Assembly: GCA_016235555.1 (NCBI GenBank)
Contig: JACRKC010000115.1
Location: forward strand, 62,001-126,000
Direction: 5' to 3'
DNA from: Verrucomicrobiota bacterium
GTDB taxonomy: Bacteria > Verrucomicrobiota > Verrucomicrobiia > Opitutales > Opitutaceae
DNA length: 64,000 nt
In this document: positions 47,967 to 61,068 of the stretch, in pieces
Layout: the number at the start of each line of letters is the position of its first letter
How positions within the stretch are numbered: the first letter of the stretch is position 1
Program-made: the position numbers and the translations under genes
The notes under the pieces: generated by a model
Told to the model about the DNA's origin: nothing
Seen by the model: the letters and a program-made list of their open reading frames with translations, nothing else
Databases searched by the model: none

Positions 47967-49748
47967 TCAGTCCCATCCCACGACCGCGGTGGCGTGGGCC
48001 GCCAGGTTCAGGACACGCTCGCCCCATGCTCCGGTCACCCGCACGCGTTGCGGCACCGCACGGAAATTGCCCAGCGCCACGACCCGCCGCGGCCCCGCAT
48101 GAAGGGCGAGTCCGTCGACGCTCCAACGATGAGACGACGCGACGGCGAACGGCGTCGCGTCGCGCCACGCGCAAAGGCCGGCCAACATGGCGTGCACCGG
48201 ATGAGGCGCTCCGTTGGACGTGAGCAGGCCGTTGGCGCCGGACGTCTCAAAATAAGTGCAGGCCGTCGCGCCGCTGCGAGCGTGGGCGGCAAGGCTGCCG
48301 AGCGTCCAGGCGGCGCAGAAGGCGGACGCCTGGCGCCCATCCTCCTGGAACGGCAGGAGATTGGGCGCAACGCCCGTCGGCGCCCCGGGTTCGCCCTGCC
48401 GCCAGCGACGGGTCAGGGTGATGGGCGACACGACCGGCGCCTGGCCGGCGAGACGGCCCGCCTCGATCGCCATGGTCTCGTGCATGGCCAGGGTCTCGAC
48501 CAACGAGGCCTCATCAGAGGCGTGCACCTGGGGATTGGTGGCGTAAACCGGAAAATCGGCGCACTGCGCCACGTCCGCATGCCGGTTGAGTTCGGTAAAG
48601 TTGTCCGTCGCACCTGCGCCAATCGCGGCACCGTGCGGCGTGCCGGCGAGCGCCGTCCGCAGAGCTTCGACTGCGCCCGGCCGCACCGCTTCGCCTGCCT
48701 CCGGCAACAGCAACCAACGCGCGAGAGGAACGCATGGCGCCGCGGCGGCGAGCAGGCGGCGCACGCGCTCGCCGATCGCGCGCACCTCGTGATCGATGAA
48801 GAGGGCGGCCTCCAGCTCGAGCCCCAGCGTTTTTGCCGCGGTCGCGGCGCGGGCGAACGGCGCGGCGCCGCCGGGATCACCGAGTCTGACATCGACGCGC
48901 AGGTGCGACAACGGCAACGCGCGCAAGGCCGCGAGGGTTTCCGGAACGATGGCAGGCTCGGTCCAGACCACGCCGAGCCGTGGTAACGAGGTGCCGAGCG
49001 GCGCGCCGATCTCCAGCCGCACTTCCGGCGGCGCATGCCACGGCGGCGAAAACGTCGGAGGCGGCGCTTCCGGCCGGCCCAGCAATCGCACCGTGATCTT
49101 CTGCCGCACGCGCGTGCCACGATTCACCCGCACCGGTCGCGGCAGGCGCAACGGGGTGCAGAAAGTCTTGAACGAGGCATCTCCCCAGTTGCGCTGATCC
49201 TCCATCTCGAAGGCGTCGCCTTCCATGCGGACCTCGGCGCGCACTCCGGGAGCGACCTCGTGCGAGATCGCCCGCAGGTCGACAAAAGGCGCCGTGCCTT
49301 GGATCGAGGCGGGGAACCTGCCTGCCCTACTCCGACCATCGACCTGCTCGACGGCACAGGACCGTCCGGCCAGCGATGCGCCGTGCAGGACGCAAAAGCC
49401 GATGCGGTTCCGCTCGAAATCACGGAGCGCCTCGCCATCGAAGGAAAACTCGAGCGTGCCTTCCGCCCGGCCGGTAATCCGGCCACGCCACCGAAAATCG
49501 ATTTCACCCTGCCGGCAGCGGGCCTCGAATCCCACCTGAAACCCATCCGCGCCCTGCGCGATTTCCAGGTCAGTGATTTGTGGCGGCACCGTCTCCCATG
49601 CCGCGCCGCGCACGGGCGCGGAGATGCCCCGCAGGACCTCATGCGCGCCGGCGTGGAGGTAGCGTAGCGAGCCGGTCGCAGGGTCGAACAAGGCCTCCAG
49701 CGCACCCGCACGGAGCACCTGGCCGGGAATGACCACCGCAGGAATCAT
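47967..49748 (-). CDS. apnL: D-apionate lactonase-like protein
   Basis: A 593-residue protein without signal peptide, therefore cytoplasmic. The N-terminal beta domain matches my memory of D-apionate lactonase (ApnL): GSLRYLHAGAHEVLRGISAP, AAWETVPPQITDLEIAQGAD, GEIDFRWRGRITGRAEGTLE and RNRIGFCVLHGASLAGRSCA, then VEQVDGRS. A TIM-barrel-like middle (LPLSHLRVDVRLGDPGGAAP, ATDNFTELNRHADVAQCADF) and a C-terminal beta domain follow. ApnL opens D-apiono-lactone to D-apionate after D-apiose dehydrogenase, which also seems present at 56499-57527. It is transcribed away from the AraC gene across a 171-base region, a normal layout for a regulated catabolic gene. Family assignment rests on recalled motifs; substrate is inferred. 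Confidence 0.72.
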   Translation of the reverse strand: MIPAVVIPGQVLRAGALEALFDPATGSLRYLHAGAHEVLRGISAPVRGAAWETVPPQITDLEIAQGADGFQVGFEARCRQGEIDFRWRGRITGRAEGTLEFSFDGEALRDFERNRIGFCVLHGASLAGRSCAVEQVDGRSRAGRFPASIQGTAPFVDLRAISHEVAPGVRAEVRMEGDAFEMEDQRNWGDASFKTFCTPLRLPRPVRVNRGTRVRQKITVRLLGRPEAPPPTFSPPWHAPPEVRLEIGAPLGTSLPRLGVVWTEPAIVPETLAALRALPLSHLRVDVRLGDPGGAAPFARAATAAKTLGLELEAALFIDHEVRAIGERVRRLLAAAAPCVPLARWLLLPEAGEAVRPGAVEALRTALAGTPHGAAIGAGATDNFTELNRHADVAQCADFPVYATNPQVHASDEASLVETLAMHETMAIEAGRLAGQAPVVSPITLTRRWRQGEPGAPTGVAPNLLPFQEDGRQASAFCAAWTLGSLAAHARSGATACTYFETSGANGLLTSNGAPHPVHAMLAGLCAWRDATPFAVASSHRWSVDGLALHAGPRRVVALGNFRAVPQRVRVTGAWGERVLNLAAHATAVVGWD

Positions 49749-49919
49749 CGTGAAGGAAGGCGAGCCAGCCCGATCCGCGCGACGCGTCGAGCTGATTCGT
49801 TAGCCAACAGGCTTCCCTCCCGGCGCCACGGTGTAGCCGCGGTGCCGAAAGATTGCGCCGCGATGCTCCTCGCTCGCCAAAGCGCCCGCGTCCGCGCAAT
49901 CATCACGCCTGTCGGCCGC
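49749..49919. promoter_or_regulatory. Divergent promoter region between lactonase-like and AraC genes
   Basis: 171 bases lie between two divergent start codons, so both promoters and the AraC binding sites are expected here. I could not fix -35/-10 boxes or a clear direct repeat of the kind AraC proteins bind. The only nearby feature is the regulator gene itself. Confidence 0.5.
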
Positions 49920-50816
49920 ATGTCGAAACTCCCCCACCCCAAGTCTCACCGCCAGGAAGCGCAGTTCGAGAGCCCGCCCGGCCCGCTGACCGCCCCCCAC
50001 TTCACCGACGAATGGTCGAAGCTTCGCACCATCTCGCTCCGGAGCGTGCACACCCGGCCGCGCAACTTCTGCCAGTGGCATTCGCATCCGTTCGATGAAC
50101 TCAGTCTCACCACGGACGGCTCCACGCTCAGCGGTCACGCGGGCCGGCTGGTCCCCATCGGGGCGAATACACTCTTCCACTACCGCCCGGGCGAGGAACA
50201 CGCCTTTTGGAACGACGAACGGCAGCAACCGCGCACCTGGGTCGTCCATTTTCATCTCGATCCCAAGCTGGCCGCCGCCTTGCCCGCCTTCGCCAGCGCC
50301 GATCCCAAGCTGCGGCCGTGCCAGCTCAGCCTGCCGCAAGTCGAGACGTTCAAGTGGCTCTTCATGCGGCTCTCCGTCGAGCACTCGCAGCGCAATCCCA
50401 TCTGCTCCGTCGCCGAGTCGGCCTGGCTGCACCTCCTGCTGGTCAACGTTCACCGCTGGGTGCGCCAGGAGTTCGCCACCTCGATCGCGCCGGCGACCGG
50501 CCGGCCGGAGATCCTGCGACTGTGGCAGATGATCCAGGACACGCAGGGCCGCCCGGCGGAGTTCGCGCGCCGGATCAAGGAAACGCCCAACTACAACTCC
50601 CTGCGCACTGAATTCACCGCGGTGTTCGGCGTTTCCCCGAGCCAGATGGCGCTGCGGACGCGCATCCAGACGGCCAAGAATCTGTTGGTCGAGACGCCCC
50701 TCAGCATCAAGCAGATCGCCGACGAACTCGGCTACATGCGGCAGCACGAGTTCACGCGGGCGTTTCACCGCGTCGCCGGACGCTCGCCGACCCTCTGGCG
50801 AGAGGATCCGAGCTGA
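49920..50816 (+). CDS. AraC-family transcriptional regulator
   Basis: A 298-residue DNA-binding protein. The N-terminal cupin-like sensor domain shows CQWHSHPFDELSLTTDGSTL and LFHYRPGEEHAFWND. The C-terminal double helix-turn-helix shows VSPSQMALRTRIQTAKNLLV, TPLSIKQIADELGYMRQHEF and TRAFHRVAGRSPTLWRED. Start MSKLPHPKSH at 49920 is preferred over an in-frame upstream ATG because the extra residues look non-coding. It heads the catabolic gene run and faces the lactonase-like gene, so it probably activates one or both in response to a sugar. A 143-base gap with no gene follows before the FAH gene. Confidence 0.9.
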   Translation: MSKLPHPKSHRQEAQFESPPGPLTAPHFTDEWSKLRTISLRSVHTRPRNFCQWHSHPFDELSLTTDGSTLSGHAGRLVPIGANTLFHYRPGEEHAFWNDERQQPRTWVVHFHLDPKLAAALPAFASADPKLRPCQLSLPQVETFKWLFMRLSVEHSQRNPICSVAESAWLHLLLVNVHRWVRQEFATSIAPATGRPEILRLWQMIQDTQGRPAEFARRIKETPNYNSLRTEFTAVFGVSPSQMALRTRIQTAKNLLVETPLSIKQIADELGYMRQHEFTRAFHRVAGRSPTLWREDPS

Positions 50817-50959: not shown

Positions 50960-51907
50960 ATGCGCCTCTACTCCTTCGTCGCGAACGACCAATCCCGCCT
51001 CGGCGTGGAGGTGAACGGTCGTCTGGTCGACCTGAACGCCGCCCACGCCGCCAGGCTTGCGCGAGCGGACGCGCGCCTGGCCCCGACGATGCTCGACCTG
51101 ATTCGCGGCGGAGTTGCGGCCTTGAACGACGCCCGCGCGGCCCTCGCCTTCGCCTCGCAGGAACCCGCCCGCGTCCGCGATGCCACCCACGAGTTTGACC
51201 GGATACGGCTGCTCGCACCGATCTCGCGGCCCGGGAAGATCCTTTGCTCCGGCCTCAACTACCGCAGCCACGTGGAGGAAAATCCCGCGGCCACATTTCT
51301 GGAGGATCCGCGTTTTTTTGTGAAGACGACAAACACCGTGATCGGCCCGGAGGAACCGATCCGCTGGCCGGGAGCGCGTTTTCAGGTGGACTACGAAGTC
51401 GAGCTGGCCGTGGTGATCGGCAAGGCGGGACGGCGTCTGACGCGCGGCCAGGCCATGGATTTCGTGTTCGGCTACACCATCCTCCACGATGTCACCGCCC
51501 GCTGGGTGCAATTCAAAGACAAGAACGAGGACATGGGGAAGAACTTCGACACGTTCTGTCCGATGGGGCCGTGCCTCGTCACCGCCGACGAGATCCCGGA
51601 TCCCGCCGCACTGCGGCTGACGCTCAAACTCAACGGCCGGATCATGCAGGATCGCACCAACGAGGATTGGTGTTTTCCGCTGCCGCGGCTGCTGGAGTGG
51701 TTCAGTCTCGGCCTCACGTTCGAGCCCGGCGACATCGTGAGCACCGGCACTCCCGCCGGCATCGGCTATTTCCGACGGCCGCAGGTGTTCCTGAAACCGG
51801 GCGACGTTTGCGAATTGGAAATCTCCGGCATCGGAAAGCTCGTCAACCGCGTGGTGGCCGACGACGATGGCCTGACCGAACGGCCGCCGACGAAGTCCGC
51901 TTTGTGA
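50960..51907 (+). CDS. Fumarylacetoacetate hydrolase (FAH) family enzyme
   Basis: A 315-residue cytoplasmic enzyme with the C-terminal FAH fold: KILCSGLNYRSHVEENPA, VDYEVELAVVIGKAGRRLT with metal-binding acids, FGYTILHDVTARWVQFKDKN and GDIVSTGTPAGIGYFRRPQ. Members cleave C-C bonds of acylpyruvates or dehydrate and hydrolyse 2-keto acids. In sugar-acid pathways they act on 2,4-diketo-3-deoxy acids or 2-keto-3-deoxy acids. It starts the enzyme part of the operon and is followed by the metallo-beta-lactamase-fold gene 28 bases later. Its substrate in an apiose-type pathway is not known. Confidence 0.9.
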   Translation: MRLYSFVANDQSRLGVEVNGRLVDLNAAHAARLARADARLAPTMLDLIRGGVAALNDARAALAFASQEPARVRDATHEFDRIRLLAPISRPGKILCSGLNYRSHVEENPAATFLEDPRFFVKTTNTVIGPEEPIRWPGARFQVDYEVELAVVIGKAGRRLTRGQAMDFVFGYTILHDVTARWVQFKDKNEDMGKNFDTFCPMGPCLVTADEIPDPAALRLTLKLNGRIMQDRTNEDWCFPLPRLLEWFSLGLTFEPGDIVSTGTPAGIGYFRRPQVFLKPGDVCELEISGIGKLVNRVVADDDGLTERPPTKSAL

Positions 51908-51935: not shown

Positions 51936-52712
51936 ATGCCCCAACCCAAACTCCGCTTCTTCGGCGTCGCCGCCTACGAACTCATCGACCGCACCGGCCG
52001 GCGCATTTTGGTCGATCCGTTTCTCGACGACTGCCCGGGAAATCCGGTGAAGTCGGACCAGCTCGAAAAAGTCGACCTCGTCGTCGTCTCCCACGCCGCG
52101 ATCGATCACCTGGGTGACACCGAGAAGATCGCCCGGCGACATGGCTGCCCCGTCATCTGCGGCGGCGAAGTGAAGGCCTTTCTCGTCGCGCGCGGCGTGC
52201 CCGCCACCCAGATCCGCGCCACGACCTGGGGCATCCGCGTCCGTGTCGCCGGAGTCGAGGTCCAGCCGGTCGAGTGCCATCATTGGTCCCAAATCCGGAT
52301 GCCCGACGGCACGTTTGCTAGCGGTGTGCCCATGGCGTTCGTGATCGAGCTCGGCGCGGGCCACCGTTTCTATCACTACGGCGACACCGCGCTGTTCACC
52401 GACATGAAGCTCCAGGCGGAGCTCTACCGCCCGACGATCGGCGCGATCGGCATCGCGAACCCGCAGGAAATCCTCGCGCGCTTCCCCATGCCGGGCGAGA
52501 TGCTGACCAGCGAGCTCAGCCCGCGCGAAGGCATCCTCGCCGCGCAATGGCTCGACCTCGCCACCATTTTGCCCTGCCACTACATCGATCCCGACACGAA
52601 TGCCGACCTGCAGGAATTCCAGCGCCTGCACCGCGAGGTGCAGGCTCGCGGCGAAAAGATCGGCGCGAGTGTCGTGCTCCGACCCGGCGAGTGGCTCGAA
52701 CTGAAACCGTGA
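51936..52712 (+). CDS. Metallo-beta-lactamase-fold protein, UlaG-like
   Basis: A 258-residue cytoplasmic protein. Fold markers: ILVDPFLDDCPGNP, VVVSHAAIDHLGD (H53, D57, H58), VECHHWSQIRMPDG, RFYHYGDTALFTDMK with the bridging aspartate, and ILPCHYIDPDTNADLQEF. The canonical HxHxDH motif reads HxAxDH, so one zinc-1 ligand is missing and the metal site may be altered. UlaG relatives include L-ascorbate-6-phosphate lactonase, so a second lactonase or phosphoester role is possible. It is 13 bases upstream of the zinc dehydrogenase gene. Confidence 0.82.
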   Translation: MPQPKLRFFGVAAYELIDRTGRRILVDPFLDDCPGNPVKSDQLEKVDLVVVSHAAIDHLGDTEKIARRHGCPVICGGEVKAFLVARGVPATQIRATTWGIRVRVAGVEVQPVECHHWSQIRMPDGTFASGVPMAFVIELGAGHRFYHYGDTALFTDMKLQAELYRPTIGAIGIANPQEILARFPMPGEMLTSELSPREGILAAQWLDLATILPCHYIDPDTNADLQEFQRLHREVQARGEKIGASVVLRPGEWLELKP

Positions 52713-52725
52713 CCACCCGCCGCGC

Positions 52726-53733
52726 ATGAAAGCCCTGATCCTCGAAGGCGTCCGGCAATTGCGGCTGGGCGACTGGCCCGAGCCCGTCTGCGGCGCCACG
52801 GATGTCCTCCTGCGTCCGATCGCCGCCGGCATCTGCGCCGGCGACATGCAGCACTACCTCGGACGCAACCCATACACCAAGTATCCGCTGATCGGCGGCC
52901 ACGAGGTGTGCGGAACGGTCGTCGAAACCGGCACGGCCGTGACGCGCGTGGTGCGCGGCGACTTGGTGGTCATCGAGCCGGTGGTCGGCTGCGGCCACTG
53001 CTATTCCTGCCGGCACGGCAAGCCGAACTGCTGCGTGAATTTCTGCCTCATCGGCCTGCACCGTCCGGGCGGCTTCGCCGAACTGTGCGTCGCACCTGCG
53101 GCCAACGTCCATCGCGTGCCCGCCGGACTCGATCCGTTGACCGCCTCGTTCGCCGAGCCGCTCACCATCGGCATCCAGGCCTGCCGCCGGGGCGAGGTCG
53201 CCGCGGACGACACCTGCCTGATTCTCGGGGCAGGTCCGATCGGTCTCGCCATCCTTGAGGTGGCTCGGGCGCGCGGCGCGCGCGTGATCGTCTCGGACCT
53301 CAACGCGGCGCGGCTCGCGTTTGCGCGGGAACTCGGAGCGGAGACGATTTCCGCCGACGCCCGGCTTGCGGCCAACGTGGCTAGTCGGACGAATGGCGAC
53401 GGCGCCGACGTCGTCATCGAGGCCGCCGGCACCGCTGCGACGATCGAAGCGGCGGTGGACCTCGTGGCTCCGGGGGGCCGGGTGGTGATTGTCGGTCTCG
53501 CGAAGGAGAAGGTCGCGCTCGATGGCTTCGTCTTCACGCGCAAGGAAGTGAACATCCTGGGCTCGCGAAATTCCGTGGGCGCGTTTCCCGAGGCCCTTGC
53601 CCTGCTCGCGAGCGGCTCCATCCGATACCCGCGCGTCGCGACGCAGATCCCGATGTGGGAAGGCGCGTCCACCTTCGCCCAACTCGATGCCAACCCGGCC
53701 GCGCTGCACAAGGCGGTGCTGATGCTCGCGTGA
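52726..53733 (+). CDS. Zinc-dependent medium-chain alcohol dehydrogenase
   Basis: A 335-residue enzyme with catalytic zinc ligands C37 (GICAGDMQHY), H59-E60 (GGHEVCG) and E144 (FAEPLTIG). The structural zinc cluster is GCGHCYSCRHGKPNCC (about 88-103), and the NAD site is LILGAGPIGLAILEVARARG. The resemblance is to sorbitol/threonine dehydrogenase types that oxidise polyols or sugar acids. It probably oxidises a hydroxyl of a pathway intermediate or of a reduced branched sugar. One base separates its stop from the next start. Confidence 0.92.
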   Translation: MKALILEGVRQLRLGDWPEPVCGATDVLLRPIAAGICAGDMQHYLGRNPYTKYPLIGGHEVCGTVVETGTAVTRVVRGDLVVIEPVVGCGHCYSCRHGKPNCCVNFCLIGLHRPGGFAELCVAPAANVHRVPAGLDPLTASFAEPLTIGIQACRRGEVAADDTCLILGAGPIGLAILEVARARGARVIVSDLNAARLAFARELGAETISADARLAANVASRTNGDGADVVIEAAGTAATIEAAVDLVAPGGRVVIVGLAKEKVALDGFVFTRKEVNILGSRNSVGAFPEALALLASGSIRYPRVATQIPMWEGASTFAQLDANPAALHKAVLMLA

Positions 53734-53734
53734 A

Positions 53735-54133
53735 ATGAAACACCACGGCCTCGATCATCTCGCCATCGCCGTGCCGGACACGGAGGCCGCCCTGCGCATC
53801 TGGCGTGATCGGCTCGGTTTTCCGGTCCTCTTCAGCGAAGTCGTCCAAGGCGGCGCCGTGCGCCTGACGCATCTCGACCTCGGCAATACGCAGCTCCAAC
53901 TGGTCGAGCCGCTGGTGCCCGGACATCCGCTGGCCGAATGGCTCGCGCGCCATGGACCCGGCCTGCACCACTTCTGCCTCGGGGTCTCCGACGTCGGCCG
54001 CGCGCACGCCGAACTGCCCCGGGAGGGCGTGGCGGTCGCGCCCTCCGTCCATCAGGGCACGAAGGGCAAACGCGCGCTGTTTCTCGACGCCGCCGGCACC
54101 CAGGGCGTGCGCGTGGAGGTCACCGGCCCATGA
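53735..54133 (+). CDS. VOC/glyoxalase-fold protein, methylmalonyl-CoA epimerase-like
   Basis: A 132-residue protein of two beta-alpha-beta-beta-beta units. Markers: GLDHLAIAVPDTEAALRIWR at the N-terminus, LGNTQLQLVEPLVPGHP, PGLHHFCLGVSDVGRAHAEL and QGVRVEVTGP. The positions of the histidines and glutamates fit metal-dependent epimerases of the methylmalonyl-CoA epimerase subgroup. No CoA chemistry is evident around it, so an epimerase or isomerase of a branched hydroxy acid is a fair guess. Its stop overlaps the DUF1537 kinase start. Confidence 0.8.
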   Translation: MKHHGLDHLAIAVPDTEAALRIWRDRLGFPVLFSEVVQGGAVRLTHLDLGNTQLQLVEPLVPGHPLAEWLARHGPGLHHFCLGVSDVGRAHAELPREGVAVAPSVHQGTKGKRALFLDAAGTQGVRVEVTGP

Positions 54134-55557
54134 TGTCCGGCCTGCCACCGCCGCTGGAGGAAGCCCCGCTGCGCGCGGCGGTTCGCACAGCTTTGCGCGC
54201 CCGCGCGCCGCGCACGCTGGTCGTGCTGGACGACGATCCCACCGGCACGCAGACCGTGCATGACGTCCCGGTATTGACGACCTGGGAGGTCAACACGCTC
54301 CGGCGCGAGTTCGCCGAAAGCCCCGACGGATTCTTCGTGCTGACGAACTCGCGCAGCCTGCCGCCGACCGAGGCCGGCGCGCGCATCCGCGACATCGCCC
54401 GGAACCTGGCAACGGCCGCGCCCCGCGAAAGCTTCACGATCGTTAGTCGCGGCGACTCCACCCTGCGCGGCCATTTTCCGCTGGAGACGGATGTGCTCGC
54501 GGAGGAACTCGGGCCTTACGACGTGACCCTGGTGGTGCCTTATTTCCAGGCCGGCCGGCGCATGACCGTGCACGACGTGCACTATGTCGGCGAAGGCGAC
54601 CGATTCACGCCCGTCGCCGAGACGCCGTTCGCGCGCGATCCGAGTTTCGGCTTTCGCGCGTCGAACCTGCGCACATGGGTGGAGGAAAAATCAGGCGGCC
54701 GCATCCGCCGCGAGGAGGTTGCGTCGTTTTCCATCGCCGAGCTGCGGACGCCGGATTGGGACGACGGAGACGCCGATCCGCTCGCCGCCAGGCTGCGCGC
54801 CCTCCCGCGCGGCGCCACGGCGGTCGTCAACGCCTGCCACCCGTCCGATCTCGCGCGCTTTGTCCTCGCCGCCCTGCGCGCGGAACTCGCCGGCGGCCGC
54901 TACCTGTTTCGCACCGCGGCCGACTTCGTCGCCACGCGACTCGGCCTTGAGCCGCGGGGCCTGTGGCAGCCCGCCATCGAGTGCACTTCGGCGCGCGGCG
55001 GACTTGTGATCGTGGGGTCCCACGTGCCCAAGACCACCGGGCAGCTTCAGCACCTCCTGTGGGTCGGCGACGTCATCGCCCTCGAAGCGTCCGTGCCCGA
55101 GCTGTTGTCTCCCCGCGGGCCGGCGCTGGTCGCGGCGCTCGCAGCGCTCATCGACACCGGCGTCGCGGCCGGACGGAACGTCGTGCTTTCCACGAGCCGC
55201 ACCCTGGTCACCGGTCGGGATGCGGCCGAAAGTCTCGCCGTTGCCGGCCGCGTCTCCGCAGCCCTGGTCGATGTGGTGCGAAGGATCACCGTCGCGCCGC
55301 GCTGGATCATCGCCAAGGGCGGCATCACGTCCAGCGACGTCGCCACGGCCGGTCTCGGCGTGCAACGCGCCACCGTGCGCGGCGCGCTCCTGCCGGGCGT
55401 TCCCGTCTGGGAACTCGGCGCGGAGGCGCGATTCCCGCACCTGCCCTACGTCGTTTTTCCCGGCAACGTCGGCGGCGCCACGGCCCTGCACGATGCTCTG
55501 CAACGTCTCGCGCCGGCTCCGGCCGCGCACGAATCCATCTCCTCTCCCCTACCATGA
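54130..55557 (+). CDS. DUF1537 four-carbon acid sugar kinase family protein
   Basis: A 475-residue ATP-dependent kinase. N-terminal domain: DDDPTGTQTVHDVPVLTTW (from 34) and TNSRSLPPTEAGARIRDIAR. Substrate region: SRGDSTLRGHFPLETDVLAE and VPYFQAGRRMTVHDVHYVG. C-terminal nucleotide-binding domain: LVIVGSHVPKTTGQLQHLL, WIIAKGGITSSDVATAGLG and VFPGNVGGATALHDAL. Family kinases phosphorylate four-carbon sugar acids (tetronates, threonate), and OiaK of apiose catabolism phosphorylates 3-oxo-isoapionate. Which acid is used here cannot be read from the sequence. It overlaps the genes on both sides, consistent with one pathway unit. Confidence 0.87.
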   Translation: MMSGLPPPLEEAPLRAAVRTALRARAPRTLVVLDDDPTGTQTVHDVPVLTTWEVNTLRREFAESPDGFFVLTNSRSLPPTEAGARIRDIARNLATAAPRESFTIVSRGDSTLRGHFPLETDVLAEELGPYDVTLVVPYFQAGRRMTVHDVHYVGEGDRFTPVAETPFARDPSFGFRASNLRTWVEEKSGGRIRREEVASFSIAELRTPDWDDGDADPLAARLRALPRGATAVVNACHPSDLARFVLAALRAELAGGRYLFRTAADFVATRLGLEPRGLWQPAIECTSARGGLVIVGSHVPKTTGQLQHLLWVGDVIALEASVPELLSPRGPALVAALAALIDTGVAAGRNVVLSTSRTLVTGRDAAESLAVAGRVSAALVDVVRRITVAPRWIIAKGGITSSDVATAGLGVQRATVRGALLPGVPVWELGAEARFPHLPYVVFPGNVGGATALHDALQRLAPAPAAHESISSPLP

Positions 55558-56486
55558 AGATCGCCATTCTCGGCGCCGGCGCGATGGGCAGCGCGATCGG
55601 CGCTTTGCTCCACGAAGCCGGCCACGACGTCACCCTCGTCGAGGTGGCCCGGCCTGCCATCGACGCCATCCGTTCCCGCGGCCTGATCGTGCAGGACCGC
55701 GCCGGCACCCAACGGATCGTGCCCCTCGCGATCACGGATGACCCCGCCCGGGTCGGCATCGTCGATCTCGTCGTCGTCTTCGTCAAATGCTACCATACGG
55801 TCGCCGCGGTTCAGGGCGCGCGGCTCCTGCTCGGGGCGCATACCACCGTCCTCTCGCTCCAGAATGGCTGGGGCAACGGTCCGCGGATCGCGGAGCTGAT
55901 CGGGCGGGAACGCGTCGTCCTCGGCGTGTGCTACCACAGCGCGACCGTCCTCGCGCCCGGGCTGGTGCTGCACGCGGGCCAGGGCAAGACGTTCATGGGA
56001 GAGCTCGACGGCTCCGACAGCCCGCGCCTGTGCGCCATCGTGCAGGCGTTCAACGCCGCGAGGATCGCCGTGGAGCCGAGCGGACAGGTGTTGAAGGAAA
56101 TCTGGTCCAAGCTCGCGCTCAACGTCGCCACGCTTCCGACCTCCTCCACGGTGCGCGTCACGGCCGACCGGTTGCTCGATTCCCCCGAAATGTCCGAGCT
56201 GATGAAGGATTTGCTCCGCGAGGTGGTGGCCGTGGCCCGGGCGCAGGACATCGCCCTCGATTTCGACGAGCGGTGGGAGGCCATCACGAGCTTGCTGCGG
56301 AAGCTCGCGCCGGGCACCAAGGGATCCATGTTTCAGGATGTTGAGAACCGGCGCCGCACCGAGATCGACGTCATGTGCGGTGCGATCGTGGAGGCCGGAG
56401 TGCGGTTGAACATTCCCACGCCCTGCAATCGCGCGATGGTCGGGCTCATCAAGGGCCTCGAAGCGACCTTCGCCCTCGCCGCCTAG
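55554..56486 (+). CDS. Ketopantoate reductase (ApbA/PanE)-like dehydrogenase
   Basis: A 310-residue NAD(P)-dependent enzyme: GAGAMGSAIGALLHEAGHDV, VVFVKCYHTVAAVQGARLL, SLQNGWGNGPRIAEL with N104, KEIWSKLALNVATLP with the catalytic lysine K186 and N190, and TEIDVMCGAIVEAG. The fold and residues are those of ketopantoate reductases. It sits in the place where apiose pathways have a C-C rearranging or oxidising dehydrogenase (ApnO, a different family), so an alternative oxidation of apionate or another branched acid is my inference; panE for pantothenate is unlikely in this operon. Start overlaps the kinase stop (ATGA). Confidence 0.85.
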   Translation: MKIAILGAGAMGSAIGALLHEAGHDVTLVEVARPAIDAIRSRGLIVQDRAGTQRIVPLAITDDPARVGIVDLVVVFVKCYHTVAAVQGARLLLGAHTTVLSLQNGWGNGPRIAELIGRERVVLGVCYHSATVLAPGLVLHAGQGKTFMGELDGSDSPRLCAIVQAFNAARIAVEPSGQVLKEIWSKLALNVATLPTSSTVRVTADRLLDSPEMSELMKDLLREVVAVARAQDIALDFDERWEAITSLLRKLAPGTKGSMFQDVENRRRTEIDVMCGAIVEAGVRLNIPTPCNRAMVGLIKGLEATFALAA

Positions 56487-56498
56487 TTGAGACACTCC

Positions 56499-57527
56499 AT
56501 GCGTCTTGCCCTTTTCGGTGCCGGCTTCTGGACGCGCTTTCAACTCGCCGCGTGGCGCGAACTGCCCGGCGTGGAGTGCGTGGCCATCTACAATCGCACG
56601 CGTGGCCGCGCGGAGGCGCTCGCGCGCGAATGCGGGATCCCGGCGGTTTACGACGATGCCGGGGCGCTGTTGCGCGAGGCGCGGCCCGATTTCGTCGACA
56701 ACGTCACCGAGGTCGGCGGGCACCTGCCGCTCTCGCTCCTCTGCGCCCGACACCGCATCCCGTGCATCTGCCAGAAGCCGCTGGCGGCCTCACTGGCCGA
56801 CGCGCGCGAGCTGGTCGCGGCTTTCGCCCGCACCGGCACGCCACTCCTCGTCCACGAGAACTGGCGCTGGCAGGCGCCGAGTGTCGCGTTGCGCCGGCGG
56901 CTCGCGGCGGGCGCCATCGGCACACCGTTTCGCGCGCGGCTCACCATGACGTCGGGTTTCGACTGCTGGGCCAACCAGCCGGCGCTGGCGCAGCTCGAAA
57001 ACTACATTCTCACCGACCTCGGCACGCACCTGCTCGACACGGCTCGCGCGTGCTTCGGCGAGGCCCGCTCCCTTTATGCGCAGACCCACCGCACCCTGTC
57101 GCCCGCCGTGCGCGGCGAAAACGTCGCGACCCTGCTGCTCAGCATGGGCGCGGCGCGCACGAGCGTGACGATCGAGATGGCGTTCGCGAAGACGCCGCTC
57201 GAACGCGAGTGTTTTCCCCAGACTCTCGCGTTCGTCGAAGGCACGGCGGGATCGCTCGCGCTCGACCCCGGCTACCGCCTTCGACTCACGACCGCGCGCG
57301 GCACGGAGGTCACGGCTCATCCGCCGCCCGCCTATGCCTGGGCCGATCCCGCCTACGCCGTCGTGCACGCCAGCATCGTTCCCTGCCACGCCAACCTGCT
57401 CGCCGCCTTGCGCGGCGAAAGCGCGGCGGAGACGGCGGGAGACGACAACCTCAAGACGCTCGAACTGGTGTTCGGCGCCTACGACTCCGCCCGCCACGAC
57501 GCCGTCGTGCGCTTCGGCGGGGAGTGA
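56499..57527 (+). CDS. apsD: D-apiose dehydrogenase-like Gfo/Idh/MocA enzyme
   Basis: A 342-residue cytoplasmic enzyme, the only Gfo/Idh protein in the window without an export signal. Rossmann start MRLALFGAGFWTRFQLAAW, then CVAIYNRTRGRAEALAREC, FVDNVTEVGGHLPLSLLCA and CICQKPLAASLADARELVA, where QKP replaces the usual EKP. C-terminal half: LVHENWRWQAPSVALRRRL, NYILTDLGTHLLDTARACF, YAWADPAYAVVHASIVPCHA and DDNLKTLELVFGAYDSARHD. The QKP variant, the HENWRWQAP block and the YDSAR end match the D-apiose dehydrogenase group as I remember it. It would oxidise D-apiose to the lactone that ApnL opens. Directly followed by the importer genes. Confidence 0.7.
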   Translation: MRLALFGAGFWTRFQLAAWRELPGVECVAIYNRTRGRAEALARECGIPAVYDDAGALLREARPDFVDNVTEVGGHLPLSLLCARHRIPCICQKPLAASLADARELVAAFARTGTPLLVHENWRWQAPSVALRRRLAAGAIGTPFRARLTMTSGFDCWANQPALAQLENYILTDLGTHLLDTARACFGEARSLYAQTHRTLSPAVRGENVATLLLSMGAARTSVTIEMAFAKTPLERECFPQTLAFVEGTAGSLALDPGYRLRLTTARGTEVTAHPPPAYAWADPAYAVVHASIVPCHANLLAALRGESAAETAGDDNLKTLELVFGAYDSARHDAVVRFGGE

Positions 57528-57539
57528 CGCCACCCGACG

Positions 57540-59075
57540 ATGAGCGCGCCTGTTGCTCCCTTCCCTTCGTCGGCGCCGCTCCTGACCATGCGCGGCATCC
57601 GGAAGGCGTTCGCGGGCGTCACCGTTCTCCACGACGTGGATTTCTCCGTCCACGCCGGTGAAGTGCACGCTCTCTGCGGCGAAAACGGCGCCGGCAAGAG
57701 CACGTTGATGAACATCCTCGCCGGCGTGGTTCGGCCCGACCAAGGCGAGATCGTCCTCGCCGGAACGACCGCCCGGGGGTTTGCCAACGCGCACGCCGCC
57801 CGCCAGGCCGGCGTGAGCATGGTGTTCCAGGAACGCAGTCTCTTCGAACCGCTCACGGTGGCGGAGAACATTTTCGCCGGCCGGCAGCCGGTCGACCGTT
57901 GGGGATGCATCAACCGGCGAGCCCTCGCCACCGACGCCGCCGCCGTGCTCGCGCGCGTGGCGCCGGAAATCGCTCCGGTCGAGATCGTCGCCGGGCTTTC
58001 GCCCGCGCGCCAGCAGATGGTCGAAATTGCGAAAGCGCTCTCGCTGGAGGCGAAGATCGTGATTTTCGACGAGCCGACCGCGTCGCTGACCGCGACGGAA
58101 ATCAGCCGGCTGTTCGCGGTCATCCGCCAGCTCCGCGCCGCGGGCACGGGCATCATCTACATCTCGCATCGTCTCGAGGAAATCTTCGCCCTCGCCGATC
58201 GCGTCACCGTGCTGAAGGACGGCGGGTGGCAGGCGACGCTGCCGGTGAGTCAGACCGATGCCGACGACCTGATCCGCCGGATGGTGGGGCGCGACCTGAA
58301 AGAGGCGGCCCAAGGCCGCGCCGACTCGCGCGGCCCCGTCCTGCTCGACGTGCGCGGCCTGCGGGATGCCGGCCAGCCGGCGTTGCGCGACATTACCTTC
58401 CATGTCCGGGCGGGCGAGATCGTCGGCTTCGCCGGCCTCTCCGGCGCCGGCCGCACCGAGACCGCTCTCGCACTTTTCGGGCTGCGCCCGCGCGAAGCCG
58501 GTGAGATCGAGCTCGGCGGCCGACGCATCGAGCCGCGCTCACCGGCGGAAGCGATCGCGGACGGCCTCGGCTATCTGAGCGAGGATCGCAAGGAGGCCGG
58601 GCTCTTCTCCGACCTCAGCGTGCGCCGCAACCTGAGCGCGGCCCGGCTCGGCGCGTTTGGCGGGTGGTTTTTCCGCGACGGCGCCGAAGCGGCTGAGGCC
58701 CGGGACCGAGTCGGGCAATTGCGGATCGCGTGCCGCGATATCGAACAGGACGTGGCCCACCTCAGCGGCGGCAACCAGCAGAAGGTCGTGCTCGGACGCT
58801 GGCTGAAAGCGAACCCGCGGGTGTTGATCGTCGACGAGCCGACGCGGGGCGTCGATGTCGGCGCGAAGGCCGAAGTTCACGAAATCCTCCGGGCCTACGC
58901 GCGCCGGGGTCACGCCGTCATCGTGATCTCCAGCGATCTGCCCGAAGTGCTGCGCCTTGCCGACCGAATCTATGTGATGCGCCGCGGCCGGATCGCCGGC
59001 GAACTCGCCGCGGCCGACGCGAGCGAAGAAGCCGTCATGCGGCTGGCCGCCGCCGATCCGGACGCCGCCGCATGA
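57540..59075 (+). CDS. Ribose-type sugar ABC importer ATPase (two cassettes)
   Basis: A 511-residue protein with two ATP-binding cassettes. Cassette 1: Walker A CGENGAGKSTLMN (about 47-59), altered signature LSPARQQMVEIAKAL, Walker B IVIFDEPTASLTATE. Cassette 2: degenerate Walker A GLSGAGRTETALALF, good signature LSGGNQQKVVLGRWL, and VLIVDEPTRGVDVGAK. This pairing of one degenerate site is normal in RbsA/MglA/XylG-type importers. It couples ATP hydrolysis to pentose uptake with the adjacent permease and binding protein. Only 12 bases after the apiose-dehydrogenase-like gene; overlaps the permease start (ATGA). Confidence 0.95.
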   Translation: MSAPVAPFPSSAPLLTMRGIRKAFAGVTVLHDVDFSVHAGEVHALCGENGAGKSTLMNILAGVVRPDQGEIVLAGTTARGFANAHAARQAGVSMVFQERSLFEPLTVAENIFAGRQPVDRWGCINRRALATDAAAVLARVAPEIAPVEIVAGLSPARQQMVEIAKALSLEAKIVIFDEPTASLTATEISRLFAVIRQLRAAGTGIIYISHRLEEIFALADRVTVLKDGGWQATLPVSQTDADDLIRRMVGRDLKEAAQGRADSRGPVLLDVRGLRDAGQPALRDITFHVRAGEIVGFAGLSGAGRTETALALFGLRPREAGEIELGGRRIEPRSPAEAIADGLGYLSEDRKEAGLFSDLSVRRNLSAARLGAFGGWFFRDGAEAAEARDRVGQLRIACRDIEQDVAHLSGGNQQKVVLGRWLKANPRVLIVDEPTRGVDVGAKAEVHEILRAYARRGHAVIVISSDLPEVLRLADRIYVMRRGRIAGELAAADASEEAVMRLAAADPDAAA

Positions 59076-60046
59076 ACCAGGTTTCCTCCGCTCCCCGCCG
59101 CTTCGCGCTGTCGCGCGAGCTGGGCATCTGCCTCCTTCTGCTCCTGACGATCGTGCTCTATCGCGTGCTGTTTCCGGTCACCTGGCAGCAGTTCGCCACG
59201 CTCGCGAACTTCGCCGCCGTCACGCGCAACCTCGCCTTCGAGGGCGTGCTCGCCCTCGGCATGATGATGCTGCTGGTGAGCGGGACTTTTGATCTCAGCG
59301 TCGGCGCGACCGCCTCGATGGTCGGCGTCGTCACCGGCTGGCTGATGAAACACGCCGGCTGGCCGGTGCCCGCGGCCGTCGCGGCCGGACTCGCGTTGGG
59401 CGCCGTCGCCGGCCTCGTCAACGGGATCGTCATCGCCCGGGTGCGCGTGAACGCGCTCATCACGACGCTCGGCACGATGGGCATCTATTCCGGCGCCGCG
59501 CTGCTGGTGGGCGGCCCGGGGATCACGTTCCTGCCCCCGTCGTTCGCGCGACTCGGTCAGGCGCAATTCCTCGGCGTGCAGACGCCCGTGTGGCTGCTGC
59601 TCGGGCTCGGGATCGCGGCGCACTACGCTTTGGCCCACACGCGCTTCTTCCGCCAATACTACTACGTCGGCTCGAATGCGAAGGCGGCGCGCCTCAGCGG
59701 CCTGCGGGTCGAGCGGCTCCAGGTGATCGCGTTTACCCTCGTCGGGGCGCTCGCCGGGCTCGCCGGCATCGTCTACGCCGCGCGCGTCGCGACCGCCAGC
59801 AGCACGATCGGCGCGGGCAAGGAGCTGGGCGCGATCACTGCGTGCATCCTCGGCGGCGCCAGCCTGCAAGGGGGACGCGGCACCGCATGGGGCGCGCTGC
59901 TGGGGGTGCTCTTTGTCGCGGTGATGCAGAACATGCTTCTCCTGAAACAAGTCCGGCCCGAATGGCAGGACATCATCCTCGGGCTCGTCCTCGTCTTTGC
60001 CGTCGCGTTCGATTCCCTGCTGAACCGAAAGCAATTCCACCCATGA
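59072..60046 (+). CDS. Ribose-type sugar ABC importer permease
   Basis: A 324-residue integral membrane protein with about eight to ten hydrophobic helices and the family blocks ALGMMMLLVSGTFDLSVGAT, VNALITTLGTMGIYSGAALL, YYYVGSNAKAARLSGLRVER and ITACILGGASLQGGRGTAWG. It is the RbsC-type membrane channel of the importer. The start overlaps the ATPase stop and its stop overlaps the binding-protein start, so the three are translationally coupled. Confidence 0.95.
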   Translation: MNQVSSAPRRFALSRELGICLLLLLTIVLYRVLFPVTWQQFATLANFAAVTRNLAFEGVLALGMMMLLVSGTFDLSVGATASMVGVVTGWLMKHAGWPVPAAVAAGLALGAVAGLVNGIVIARVRVNALITTLGTMGIYSGAALLVGGPGITFLPPSFARLGQAQFLGVQTPVWLLLGLGIAAHYALAHTRFFRQYYYVGSNAKAARLSGLRVERLQVIAFTLVGALAGLAGIVYAARVATASSTIGAGKELGAITACILGGASLQGGRGTAWGALLGVLFVAVMQNMLLLKQVRPEWQDIILGLVLVFAVAFDSLLNRKQFHP

Positions 60047-61068
60047 AACCCCTGACCCGCCGTTCCCTGCTGCGCACCGCCACGCTCGGCGCGGGCGCCA
60101 CCCTGCTCGCGAGCTGTGAGAAAGCCGGCCCGGTCGCGGCCGCTCCGTCCTCGGCGCCGGGTGCCTCCGCCGCCCACGCCAACGAGGAATACGTCTGGCT
60201 CTCCGCGTCGACCGGACTCCCCCTCTTCACGCGGCACGATCAGCCCGCACTGCGGCTCGCCGCCGAGGAACTCGGCGTGAAGGCCAGCATCGCGGGACCG
60301 AGCGGGGTCGACATTCCCGGCCTCGTCGCCGCCGTGGAGCAGACGACCGCGCGCCGGCCGGCGGGGATGATGGTGGTCGGCTGGGATGCCAGCGCGCTCG
60401 TGCCATGCATCAACGCGGCCGTCGACGCGGGGATCCCGGTGATCTGCGTCGACGCCGACGTGCCCGCCAGCCGCCGGCTCGCCTTTATCGGCACGGACTG
60501 GGATGAGATTGGCATGCGACAGGGCGAGGCGATGGTGAAGGCGCTCGGCGGCCGCCGCGGCAAAGTCGCGCTCCTCGGCCTCATCGATCAGGAGATCGAT
60601 CAAAAAGCGTTCGCGGGCTTTCGCCGCGTCGTCGGGCAGGCGGGGCTTTCCTGCCTCGATCCGCAGCACGATAAGAGCAACACCGCCGAGGCGACGCGCA
60701 TCGCCGCCGGCATCCTCCAGGGCACGCCCGACCTCGTGGGCTTTGCGGGCTTCGACAGCGAGAGCGGCCCCGGCATCGCGCAGGCGATCAAGGAGGCGGG
60801 CCGCGCCGGTCGGGTGGTGGCCACTTGCGTCGAGGCCGAGGAGGCCCATCTCCGGTTTCTCAAGGAAGGCGTGCTCACCGCCTGCATCGGCCAAAAACGC
60901 GAACTCTTCACCTACCTCGGGCTGCGCACGCTGTTCGACGCCAACCACGCGAAACTCCGCTTCACGAAGAATGATCGCGCCGCCGGCGTCCGTCCGGTGC
61001 CGTCGAGCTGCAACACCGGCACCTATACCGTCACCCGCGAAAACGTTGACCATTTCCTCGCAGGTTAA
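60043..61068 (+). CDS. Sugar-binding lipoprotein of the ABC importer
   Basis: A 341-residue periplasmic-binding protein (type I, RbsB-like): NEEYVWLSASTGLPLFTRHD, GVDIPGLVAAVEQTTARRP, VVGWDASALVPCINAAVDAG, IPVICVDADVPASRRLAFIG and VATCVEAEEAHLRFLKEG. The leader has both an RR pair (LTRRSLLRTATLGAGATLLA) and a lipobox LASC with C25, so it is a lipoprotein, perhaps Tat-exported. A binding protein next to an apiose-dehydrogenase-like enzyme is probably specific for apiose or a related pentose. It ends the importer operon; 283 bases without genes follow. Confidence 0.9.
   Translation: MKPLTRRSLLRTATLGAGATLLASCEKAGPVAAAPSSAPGASAAHANEEYVWLSASTGLPLFTRHDQPALRLAAEELGVKASIAGPSGVDIPGLVAAVEQTTARRPAGMMVVGWDASALVPCINAAVDAGIPVICVDADVPASRRLAFIGTDWDEIGMRQGEAMVKALGGRRGKVALLGLIDQEIDQKAFAGFRRVVGQAGLSCLDPQHDKSNTAEATRIAAGILQGTPDLVGFAGFDSESGPGIAQAIKEAGRAGRVVATCVEAEEAHLRFLKEGVLTACIGQKRELFTYLGLRTLFDANHAKLRFTKNDRAAGVRPVPSSCNTGTYTVTRENVDHFLAG

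Follow-up and report, generated by a model that had tools for sequence, protein, structure and literature searches.

Among the closest known systems to the locus described here is the apionate branch of apiose catabolism (ApsD, ApnL, ApnO, OiaK, and OiaX), encoded for example on plasmid pRSpC104a of Rhizobium sp. C104. Its ApnO dehydrogenase, which we take to carry a PGDH_C domain (PF16896), couples an oxidation to a rearrangement. D-apionate differs from D-pantoate in carrying OH and CH2OH where the latter has its two methyl groups, and both have the same configuration at C2. Within the fold of ketopantoate reductase (KPR, PanE), D-mandelate/D-2-hydroxyacid dehydrogenases (PDB 3wfi, 8wl1) act on other 2-hydroxy acids, and KPR itself tolerates varied C3 substituents, including quaternary ones, with product acids of 2R configuration, according to the accessible part of the source (PMC10127515). 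The window analysed here, a 64,000-nucleotide stretch of the genome of a Verrucomicrobiota bacterium (Opitutaceae; GCA_016235555.1, contig C85), contains the following gene cluster.

47967..49748, minus strand: ApnL-like protein of the D-apionate lactonase family, 593 aa, divergently oriented relative to the main operon (NCBIfam NF049900)
49842..50816, plus strand: AraC-type regulator (Pfam HTH_18, AraC_binding; 83% to the C49 copy over 222 aa)
50960..51907, plus strand: fumarylacetoacetate-hydrolase (FAH) family protein, candidate C-C hydrolase or decarboxylase (Pfam FAA_hydrolase, 231 bits)
51936..52712, plus strand: metallo-beta-lactamase-fold (MBL) hydrolase, candidate lactonase (Pfam Lactamase_B_2; PRK00685, 131 bits, cut-off 144)
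52726..53733, plus strand: zinc-type alcohol dehydrogenase (Pfam ADH_N, ADH_zinc_N)
53735..54133, plus strand: VOC-fold protein, methylmalonyl-CoA-epimerase-like, candidate isomerase (TIGR03081, 87 bits, cut-off 115; PDB 6xbr)
54130..55557, plus strand: DUF1537 acid-sugar kinase, outside the OiaK clade (Pfam SBD_N, 180 bits; NBD_C, 114 bits)
55554..56486, plus strand: PanE/ApbA-fold dehydrogenase with altered substrate residues (TIGR00745; ApbA, 135 bits; ApbA_C, 108 bits; residues; fold)
56487..57527, plus strand: Gfo/Idh/MocA dehydrogenase, ApsD-like (Pfam GFO_IDH_MocA; TTG start listed, ATG at 56499 also possible)
57540..59075, plus strand: sugar ABC transporter ATPase, RbsA/AraG type (NCBIfam AraG model, 525 bits, cut-off 689)
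59072..60046, plus strand: sugar ABC transporter permease (32% to the Rhizobium operon permease)
60043..61068, plus strand: probable sugar-binding protein of the ABC transporter (74% to the C49 copy; weak match, E 3e-5, to a Shinella binding protein)
61352..62437, plus strand: second Gfo/Idh/MocA protein (Pfam GFO_IDH_MocA)

From the FAH gene to the permease gene, intergenic gaps are all 28 bases or less, and four-base overlaps join the VOC and kinase genes (ATGA), the ABC ATPase and permease genes, and, as the first-pass annotation had noticed, the kinase and PanE-like genes (ATGA, 54130-55557 / 55554-56486), both of which are full-length and stop-free. A VOC gene lies within 2 kb of the kinase gene in 6 of the 8 verrucomicrobial loci read. 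The MBL hydrolase is 87.5% identical to its copy on contig C49, which carries a sister cluster, and solved relatives of the FAH-family protein include 8sky, 6iym, HpaG (1gtt), and 2,4-diketo-3-deoxyrhamnonate hydrolase (8gsr).

Both the apionate branch and the window cluster encode a related ABC transporter, ApsD-like and ApnL-like proteins, a kinase of the DUF1537 family, and a dehydrogenase of NAD(P) type. In the Rhizobium sp. C104 operon, the Gfo protein adjoining ApnL is 40.6% identical to the ApsD-like protein, the protein adjoining the Gfo gene is 34% identical to the ApnL-like protein, and the ABC ATPase is 39.7% identical to its counterpart. The ApnL-like protein matches NF049900 over residues 9-571 (272 bits, E 8e-81), as does the C49 copy (271 bits), against a curated cut-off of 750 that was passed by 0 of 387 genomes in one and 0 of 251 in the other of the two phyla examined; because this score is far under the cut-off, the lactone may be something other than apionolactone. 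The window cluster differs from the apionate branch in having a PanE-fold enzyme in place of the PGDH_C (ApnO-type) dehydrogenase, a kinase from another DUF1537 clade, no RuBisCO-like gene, and additional FAH, MBL, VOC, and zinc alcohol dehydrogenase genes. For the PanE-like protein, Pfam gives ApbA, ApbA_C, and weak Rossmann matches, with no PGDH_C match.

We tentatively favor the view that the PanE-like protein is a 2-hydroxyacid dehydrogenase of the KPR fold, perhaps linked to NAD, that may act outside pantoate synthesis, in a branched-aldonate pathway. The ABC transporter would import a pentose such as D-apiose, the ApsD-like protein would oxidize the sugar to a lactone, and the ApnL-like protein, perhaps together with the MBL hydrolase, would open the lactone to the acid. 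We hypothesize that the PanE-like enzyme then oxidizes C2 of the acid released by the ApnL-like protein, be it apionate or a near relative, ahead of the kinase; it would thus fill the slot of ApnO while performing only the oxidation half of its reaction. The resulting 2-oxo acid would pass to the VOC protein for isomerization, to the DUF1537 kinase for phosphorylation, and to the FAH protein for C-C cleavage or decarboxylation. Since the quaternary C3 forbids simple enolization, isomerization by a VOC protein would require a ketol shift without precedent. The boldest version of this scheme would be an additional lower pathway for D-apionate that divides the two halves of the ApnO reaction between two enzymes: a KPR-fold 2-dehydrogenase runs the reverse of the pantoate reaction, and a VOC metalloenzyme carries out the ketol shift. 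A non-OiaK kinase would come next, and an FAH-family enzyme would replace the RuBisCO-like step. This version is unlikely to be right in full. In the open-access literature searched, we found no link between apiose and ketopantoate (one tomato paper has both words) nor between a window-type kinase and PanE.

The PanE-like protein passes TIGR00745, a subfamily model rather than an equivalog (242 bits, cut-off 141), and scores under the respective cut-offs of all PanE-named equivalog models listed. It is 22.6% identical to E. coli PanE and shares its fold, and the first-pass reading of K186, N190, and N104 as retained residues is borne out by the alignment, in which these correspond to K176, N180, and N98. 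S258 and E270 likewise match S244 and E256, so that the catalytic Lys176, Glu256, and Asn98 of PanE are all present (K186, E270, and N104). The substrate-contacting residues are altered: N184, N194, and N241, which in a KPR model contact the carboxylate and the 4-OH (accessible part of PMC10127515), are replaced in the PanE-like clade by L, A (L194 and A204 in the PanE-like protein), and T/A or, depending on the alignment, G. Asparagine is found at all three positions in E. coli PanE and in 12 of the 12 next-nearest Armatimonadota PanEs; around the latter, the stretches examined (one just 3.1 kb) contained no marker of ApnL, ApnO, or the kinase. Only N184 is retained in L028, a 28% identical relative from another clade. 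Position 241 is variable in the wider family, as Asn is absent there, by eye, in 3hwr and in the D-mandelate dehydrogenase 8wl1. The small or apolar replacements do not predict a more polar substrate.

At the position of Arg31, where a basic residue presumably has a role in NADPH specificity, the PanE-like protein has Glu30 or Val31 depending on the alignment, whereas 8 of 13 controls, including E. coli PanE, have R or K. The predicted structure, of medium confidence (mean pLDDT 73; residues 253-310 under 50), gives its highest TM-scores with D-mandelate dehydrogenases (0.88-0.89, against 0.77 for E. coli KPR), but NADH-bound D-mandelate dehydrogenases score just 0.76-0.78, and TM therefore tracks domain closure. 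The top fold match by E-value is 2ew2, named putative PanE, and the top sequence match is 3hwr, named PanE. The D-mandelate dehydrogenases 3wfi and 8wl1 share 26-30% identity with the PanE-like protein, and 8wl1 differs in that it seems, by eye, to retain Asn at 184. An NAD preference is perhaps suggested by the one alignment-dependent position together with the fold ranking.

These residue changes bear directly on the idea that the protein is an ordinary KPR that makes pantoate for vitamin B5 from a gene merely placed in a catabolic operon. The genome does encode panB and panC together and no other clear PanE, its five ApbA matches being two cluster genes and three proteins at 22-35 bits. Yet all three substrate asparagines are lost, each of the two copies is embedded in a catabolic cluster of this same type, and in Corynebacterium ilvC (ketol-acid reductoisomerase) covers for a missing panE, according to the accessible part of PMC4353338. 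We consider a purely biosynthetic role very improbable.

The association of this enzyme with apionate-type genes extends across two phyla, since PanE adjoins ApnL-like and ApsD-like genes both in the C49 cluster and in an Armatimonadetes MAG (PanE 60% identical). On the 11.5-kb contig of the latter, the three genes stand together with no kinase on that contig, and a DUF1537 gene is found on another contig of the same genome. Across 40 ApnL loci of Armatimonadota (the best 40 by score of 51 distinct places in 55 rows, leaving out 11 weaker ones), an ApnO gene lies within 7.5 kb in 13, a PanE-clade gene in 1, both in 0, and neither in 26; these counts come from tblastn, as the gene caller missed genes in L109 and L110 and gave ApnO in 12 of 40. 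When loci with both ApnL-like and ApsD-like genes were compared, 11 of 17 had an ApnO-type gene, 3 a PanE-clade gene, 3 neither, and none both. Two of the 17 were counted by hand, i.e. the window, where the ApsD-like gene is 8.1 kb from the ApnL-like gene and so outside the 7.5-kb rule, and L102, with a distance of ~8.5 kb and neither ApnO nor PanE; L055 and L058-L061 were excluded for having no ApsD-like gene nearby. The chance of such exclusion is 0.029 (0.018 for 16 loci before L102 was added), or 0.044-0.11 when related or hand-picked loci are merged or dropped, so that this exclusion is weak and suggestive only. In Mesorhizobium, one ApnL cluster that lacks ApnO encodes a D-2-hydroxyacid dehydrogenase from a different fold family. 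A Deinococcus gene considered as LtnD-like was set aside as encoding an epimerase-family protein.

Searches of the whole genome at E<=0.001 returned a single RuBisCO-large match (PF00016, contig C130) and a single ApnO-type match (PF16896, contig C94). The first-pass annotation was thus right that the window holds neither gene, and such genes just outside the window are ruled out, the two matches being on other contigs than C85; within the genome as a whole, one of each is encoded. The C130 gene belongs to an OiaX-like/OiaK-like pair (509.5 of 700 bits for the OiaX model, 399 of 700 bits for the OiaK model), and the C94 PGDH_C protein is 45-47.5% identical to its counterparts in three plasmid loci that also encode RuBisCO-like proteins and kinases. 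The earlier proposal that a PanE-like enzyme replaces ApnO therefore holds in part: the gene occupies a slot taken by an ApnO-type gene in 11 of 17 comparable loci, but the adjoining kinase is not OiaK and the genome has an ApnO-type protein elsewhere.

The kinase belongs to the DUF1537 superfamily, with SBD_N and NBD_C domains over its full length, but it is not OiaK. There was no match to the OiaK model (NCBIfam NF042436) at E<=0.001, the only NCBIfam kinase match being the D-threonate kinase model (44.8 bits of 450), nor any blastp match at E<=0.001 to four RuBisCO-adjacent DUF1537 kinases (Rhizobium, Shinella, Cupriavidus, and Rufibacter). In a tree of 26 rows, for which the program warned of long branches meeting and for which the G087 fusion protein was trimmed of its N-terminal cyclase part (210 residues), the window kinase falls in a 14-row clade (100/99) separate from that of the 8 RuBisCO-adjacent rows (100/99). 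Against solved structures, phmmer with the window kinase gave no match at E<=0.001, and a six-sequence kinase profile matched only 4xfm at E<=0.01. Window-type kinases occur in 7 other genomes, of which 6 were read (G098, at a contig edge, was left out), and pairing of this kinase with PanE was seen only in the window and in the C49 sister cluster.

The neighbors of window-clade kinases raise the question of whether the cluster instead degrades an unbranched or other aldonate, e.g. a threonate or erythronate relative, with PanE in the place of LtnD/YgbJ in a dehydrogenase-isomerase-kinase-decarboxylase series like ygbJKLM and with the ApnL-like protein as a lactonase of other specificity. The ygbJKLM clusters share the dehydrogenase plus DUF1537 kinase logic, and those of E. 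coli are annotated as putative L-threonate dehydrogenase, 3-oxo-tetronate kinase, decarboxylase, and isomerase. Kinases of the window clade adjoin garR-type dehydrogenases in Ligilactobacillus (by annotation and Pfam), Priestia (by annotation), and Niallia (61% to the Ligilactobacillus one), and isocitrate/isopropylmalate-dehydrogenase-family proteins in three verrucomicrobial loci, with a fragment in a fourth; VOC enolization would also be feasible if C3 carries a hydrogen. Against this stand the ApnL-like, ApsD-like, and matching ABC genes of the window cluster itself and the adjacency of PanE to ApnL-like and ApsD-like genes on the kinase-free Armatimonadetes contig. YgbK falls in a different kinase clade, and for the ten cluster genes compared with Pfam and NCBIfam, no match named an OtnC-type or OtnI-type protein. 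On balance, a tetronate-type substrate is possible but somewhat doubtful.

The same neighbors are relevant to the order of steps. The kinase could phosphorylate the acid first, with PanE then oxidizing the phosphorylated acid, as a PdxA-type enzyme does after D-threonate kinase. The kinase gene lies upstream of PanE in the operon, a DUF1537 kinase gene is followed by pdxA in Rhodococcus, and window-clade kinases have partners from the isopropylmalate-dehydrogenase family, which has the same fold as PdxA. Gene order is nevertheless a poor guide to step order, and the Armatimonadetes contig has the PanE clade without a kinase, though with a DUF1537 gene on another contig. KPR does not accept C4-substituted acids according to the accessible part of PMC10127515, a statement that leaves a 4-phosphate outside its scope. 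We regard phosphorylation before oxidation as improbable.

The sister cluster on C49 calls for some caution. Among named genomes, a single near-identical PanE locus was found, L026; it was rejected as independent support, being 99.97% identical to C49 over 19,353 bases. L026 belongs to G707 (the DNA of L139 and L026 does not differ over 3,930 bases), which is from another genus and has a listed contamination of 8%. The pattern scan of named genomes gave 3 PanE loci, including L028 (28% identical), which is not of the window PanE clade. The G+C content of C49 is 63.8%, versus 66-69% in the other 17.9-20-kb stretches of the genome, with 4-kb bins of the window at 63 to 71%, and its tetranucleotide distances partly overlap those of the other stretches. 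C49 may have been horizontally acquired or mis-binned, and the presence of two clusters in one genome is uncertain.

Taken as a second PanE function, the favored branched-aldonate role is concrete and testable, and is tied to a branched plant-cell-wall sugar acid shaped nearly like pantoate. An annotation of "2-dehydropantoate 2-reductase" does not always mean a vitamin enzyme, and the three lost asparagines provide a residue signature by which such enzymes could be sorted. If this reading is true, Verrucomicrobiota and Armatimonadota would have rebuilt the lower half of apiose catabolism with enzymes of other families.

The best reading of this region, held tentatively, is that one enzyme has been substituted for another in an operon for a branched sugar acid. 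The first-pass annotation had proposed that a PanE-like dehydrogenase may replace ApnO next to a DUF1537 kinase; the observation itself was confirmed, and its interpretation was borne out only in part, the kinase not being OiaK. The window covers positions 62001-126000 of contig C85. In this genome (8.03 Mb, 140 contigs, 98.6% complete), the genes from FAH to the ABC permease form a single-strand series with intergenic gaps of -4 to 28 bases:

47967-49748, reverse strand: 593-residue ApnL-like protein, beyond the AraC-type regulator
upstream of the series: AraC-type regulator
from 50960, forward strand: FAH
from 51936, forward strand: MBL
from 52726, forward strand: Zn-ADH
from 53735, forward strand: VOC
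54130-55557, forward strand: DUF1537 kinase
55554-56486, forward strand: PanE-like dehydrogenase
from 56487, forward strand: Gfo/Idh/MocA
from 57540, forward strand: ABC ATPase
from 59072, forward strand: ABC permease
from 60043, directly after the permease: probable binding protein

The kinase and PanE-like domains are full length, and the overlap reported earlier between the two genes is indeed an ATGA overlap, as it is in a sister cluster on contig C49 (L012:844-17603). That cluster has the same gene set, with PanE among the most conserved proteins and the kinase and lactonase the least (MBL 87.5% identity, AraC 83%, PanE 82%, permease 79%, Gfo 78%, binding protein 74%, ATPase 73%, VOC 72%, ADH 70%, FAH 68%, kinase 53%, ApnL-like 38%). 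Its VOC protein carries a fused phosphotriesterase-family domain, and the cluster additionally has an O-methyltransferase and one more ApsD-like Gfo/Idh gene, its second. Because C49 differs somewhat in composition and matches the genome of another genus (G707) at 99.97% identity over 19,353 bases, its residence in the window genome is not certain, and it may reflect recent transfer or mis-binning.

The 593-residue protein matches the NCBIfam D-apionate lactonase (ApnL) model over residues 9-571 (E 8e-81), and since its 272 bits are far below the equivalog cut-off of 750, we call it ApnL-like, not proven ApnL. The gene neighbourhood resembles that of apiose catabolism. Relatives of the window's Gfo, ApnL-like, ATPase and permease genes occur in one place on the Rhizobium sp. 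C104 plasmid pRSpC104a, where a 34% relative of the 593-residue protein adjoins a Gfo/Idh/MocA gene, and upstream of this pair lie an ABC permease, an ATPase, a PGDH_C protein, a four-carbon acid sugar kinase and an annotated oiaX (blastp identities of 40.6% for Gfo, 39.7% for ATPase and 32% for permease). We refer to the Gfo gene as ApsD-like and, assuming that ApnO has a PGDH_C domain, label the PGDH_C proteins ApnO-type; they recur at this place in operons of the kind, and a homologue on contig C94 weakly matches ketol-acid reductoisomerase, both of which back the label. The apiose pathway was reportedly described by Carter et al. in 2018. Background on it is also given in PMC6302742, and PMC13001218 offers a precedent of sorts for enzyme replacement in apiose operons, hypothesising two oxidoreductases in Escherichia as stand-ins for apiose isomerase.

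The window's PanE clade is rare. At E<=1e-45 its profile matched 4/252 genomes of the window's family (the window's own, G707 and two at 162-169 bits versus about 640), and at E<=1e-50 one of 387 genomes drawn from its phylum. A 60% identical PanE occurs in an Armatimonadetes MAG (locus L027); among 251 genomes of that phylum, 37 matched at E<=1e-45, with L027 at 603 bits and the next at 249. ApnL-family matches (E<=1e-20) were found in 48 of these 251 genomes, none over the curated cut-off, and 40 of 51 distinct ApnL places were read. Within 7.5 kb of ApnL, 13/40 loci had ApnO, three a RuBisCO-like plus an OiaK-type gene, one the PanE clade (L106, same contig as L027), none both ApnO and PanE, 26 neither, and none the window-type kinase; this single PanE locus is meaningless by itself (chance 0.675). 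An ApsD-like gene lay within the same distance in 11 of the 40 (8 ApnO, 1 PanE, 2 neither). Adding L102 (ApsD-like gene ~8.5 kb off, beyond 7.5 kb; neither gene), G289 of the window's own family and the Rhizobium and Shinella plasmids (each with ApnO), and the window (ApsD-like 8.1 kb from ApnL-like) and C49 (both with PanE) gave 17 loci with ApnL-like and ApsD-like genes: 11 ApnO, 3 PanE, 3 neither and 0 both. The chance of zero overlap is 0.029, or 0.083 with sister clusters merged, 0.044 without the hand-picked plasmids and 0.11 with both changes, which is suggestive, not firm, that PanE and ApnO share one slot and exclude each other. In the L027 genome, a separate contig bears a DUF1537 gene that is weakly OtnK-like (58 bits) and that the window kinase does not match.

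Other dehydrogenases also accompany ApnL-like genes. At L099:7975-13500 (G391), ApsD-like and ApnL-like genes are followed by a short-chain dehydrogenase, with neither PanE nor ApnO; it shares 63% identity with the short-chain dehydrogenase next to PanE in L027 and may be a further stand-in. On Mesorhizobium ciceri pMc1284 (L055:2332-10923), an ApnL-like gene is clustered with genes for an aldolase/citrate-lyase-family protein and a D-2-hydroxyacid dehydrogenase (Pfam 2-Hacid_dh_C). Markers of ApnO, the kinase and RuBisCO-like proteins are all absent from this stretch, which may represent one more lower route that also begins with C2 oxidation.

The PanE-like protein is predicted to keep catalysis with a changed ketopantoate grip. 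Counterparts of E. coli PanE N98, K176 and N180 are present, as the first-pass annotation held, and S244 and E256 also align. In a model of a 4-hydroxy-2-oxo acid in E. coli KPR (PMC10127515), the carboxylate contacts Asn184 and the Ser244 amide, the 4-OH Asn194 and Asn241, and the 2-oxo group Asn98 and Lys176. All three of Asn184, Asn194 and Asn241 are kept in E. coli and in 12/12 next-nearest Armatimonadota PanEs; the proteins of the window, C49 and L027 instead have L, A and T/T/A (G by a second alignment), respectively. Position 241 varies more widely, since a 28% relative (L028, keeping only Asn184 of the three) and PDB 3hwr and 8wl1 (by eye) also have no Asn there. The position of Arg31, which we take to be the NADPH phosphate ligand of E. 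coli PanE, is non-basic, in a region of unsure alignment. An AlphaFold2 model from four sequences (mean pLDDT 73; last 58 residues under 50) scored highest against D-mandelate dehydrogenases (TM 0.88-0.89; E. coli KPR 1ks9, 0.77), with only 0.76-0.78 for NADH-bound ones; the top match by E-value was 2ew2, a putative PanE by name (TM 0.81). Contig C19 carries panB and panC side by side (L062:1357-3044), and no gene of the window genome could be clearly recognised as a biosynthetic panE.

D-pantoate is (2R)-2,4-dihydroxy-3,3-dimethylbutanoate and D-apionate (2R)-2,3,4-trihydroxy-3-(hydroxymethyl)butanoate, so that, from the formulas, we infer a common C2 configuration and quaternary C3. ApnO oxidises apionate at C2 first and rearranges it second. 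E. coli KPR is reported to take many C3-substituted acids, quaternary included, giving 2R products, and to refuse C4-substituted ones (PMC10127515). The PanE-like enzyme would oxidise apionate at C2, the first half of ApnO's reaction. Simple enolisation is impossible at a quaternary C3, so the next step would call for a ketol shift catalysed by VOC or for phosphorylating the 2-oxo acid directly, unless the substrate is a different one altogether. This tension over the following step is why a tetronate-type pathway in place of the apionate route, unlikely as we consider it, keeps some weight.

That the window kinase is OiaK is ruled out by three lines: the OiaK model did not match it, blastp (E<=0.001) against six other DUF1537 kinases, including four next to RuBisCO-like genes (Rhizobium, Shinella, Cupriavidus, Rufibacter), gave no match, and in a 26-row tree it fell inside a 14-row clade apart from eight RuBisCO-adjacent kinases (support 100/99 for each), with deep joins unsure given the program's warning of long branches meeting. 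Kinases of its clade adjoin garR-type dehydrogenases in Ligilactobacillus and Priestia (by annotation) and in Niallia (61% to the Ligilactobacillus one). Neighbours in Deinococcus and Rhodococcus include a class II fructose-bisphosphate aldolase and a racemase-family gene, the nearby Deinococcus oxidoreductase being of the epimerase family; in Verrucomicrobiota they are isocitrate/isopropylmalate-dehydrogenase-family and cyclase-family genes. In 6/8 verrucomicrobial loci read, the kinase has a VOC gene no more than 2 kb away (window, C49, G160, G289, G240 and G087; absent in G375 and G168). At L043:9036-11069, a cyclase-family domain and a window-type kinase are fused in one 677-residue protein (Pfam Cyclase, SBD_N, NBD_C), which adjoins isocitrate/isopropylmalate-dehydrogenase-family and VOC genes.

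ApnO- and RuBisCO-like homologues, not seen in the first pass, are present elsewhere in the genome, neither being on the window's contig. On C94, an ApnO-type protein adjoins a short-chain dehydrogenase. On C130, a RuBisCO-like protein that scores 509.5 of 700 bits with the OiaX model lies beside one of the genome's four DUF1537 genes (399 of 700 bits with the OiaK model), and a Rufibacter plasmid (L024) has the same order of RuBisCO-like, kinase, racemase-family and transporter genes. The C130 block (L013:6568-11144) comprises the RuBisCO-like gene, the OiaK-like kinase, an Asp/Glu-racemase-family gene and a bile-acid-symporter-type transporter, and adjoins a 903-aa protein. With these classical parts present on C130 and C94, the genome therefore does not depend on the window cluster alone for such chemistry.
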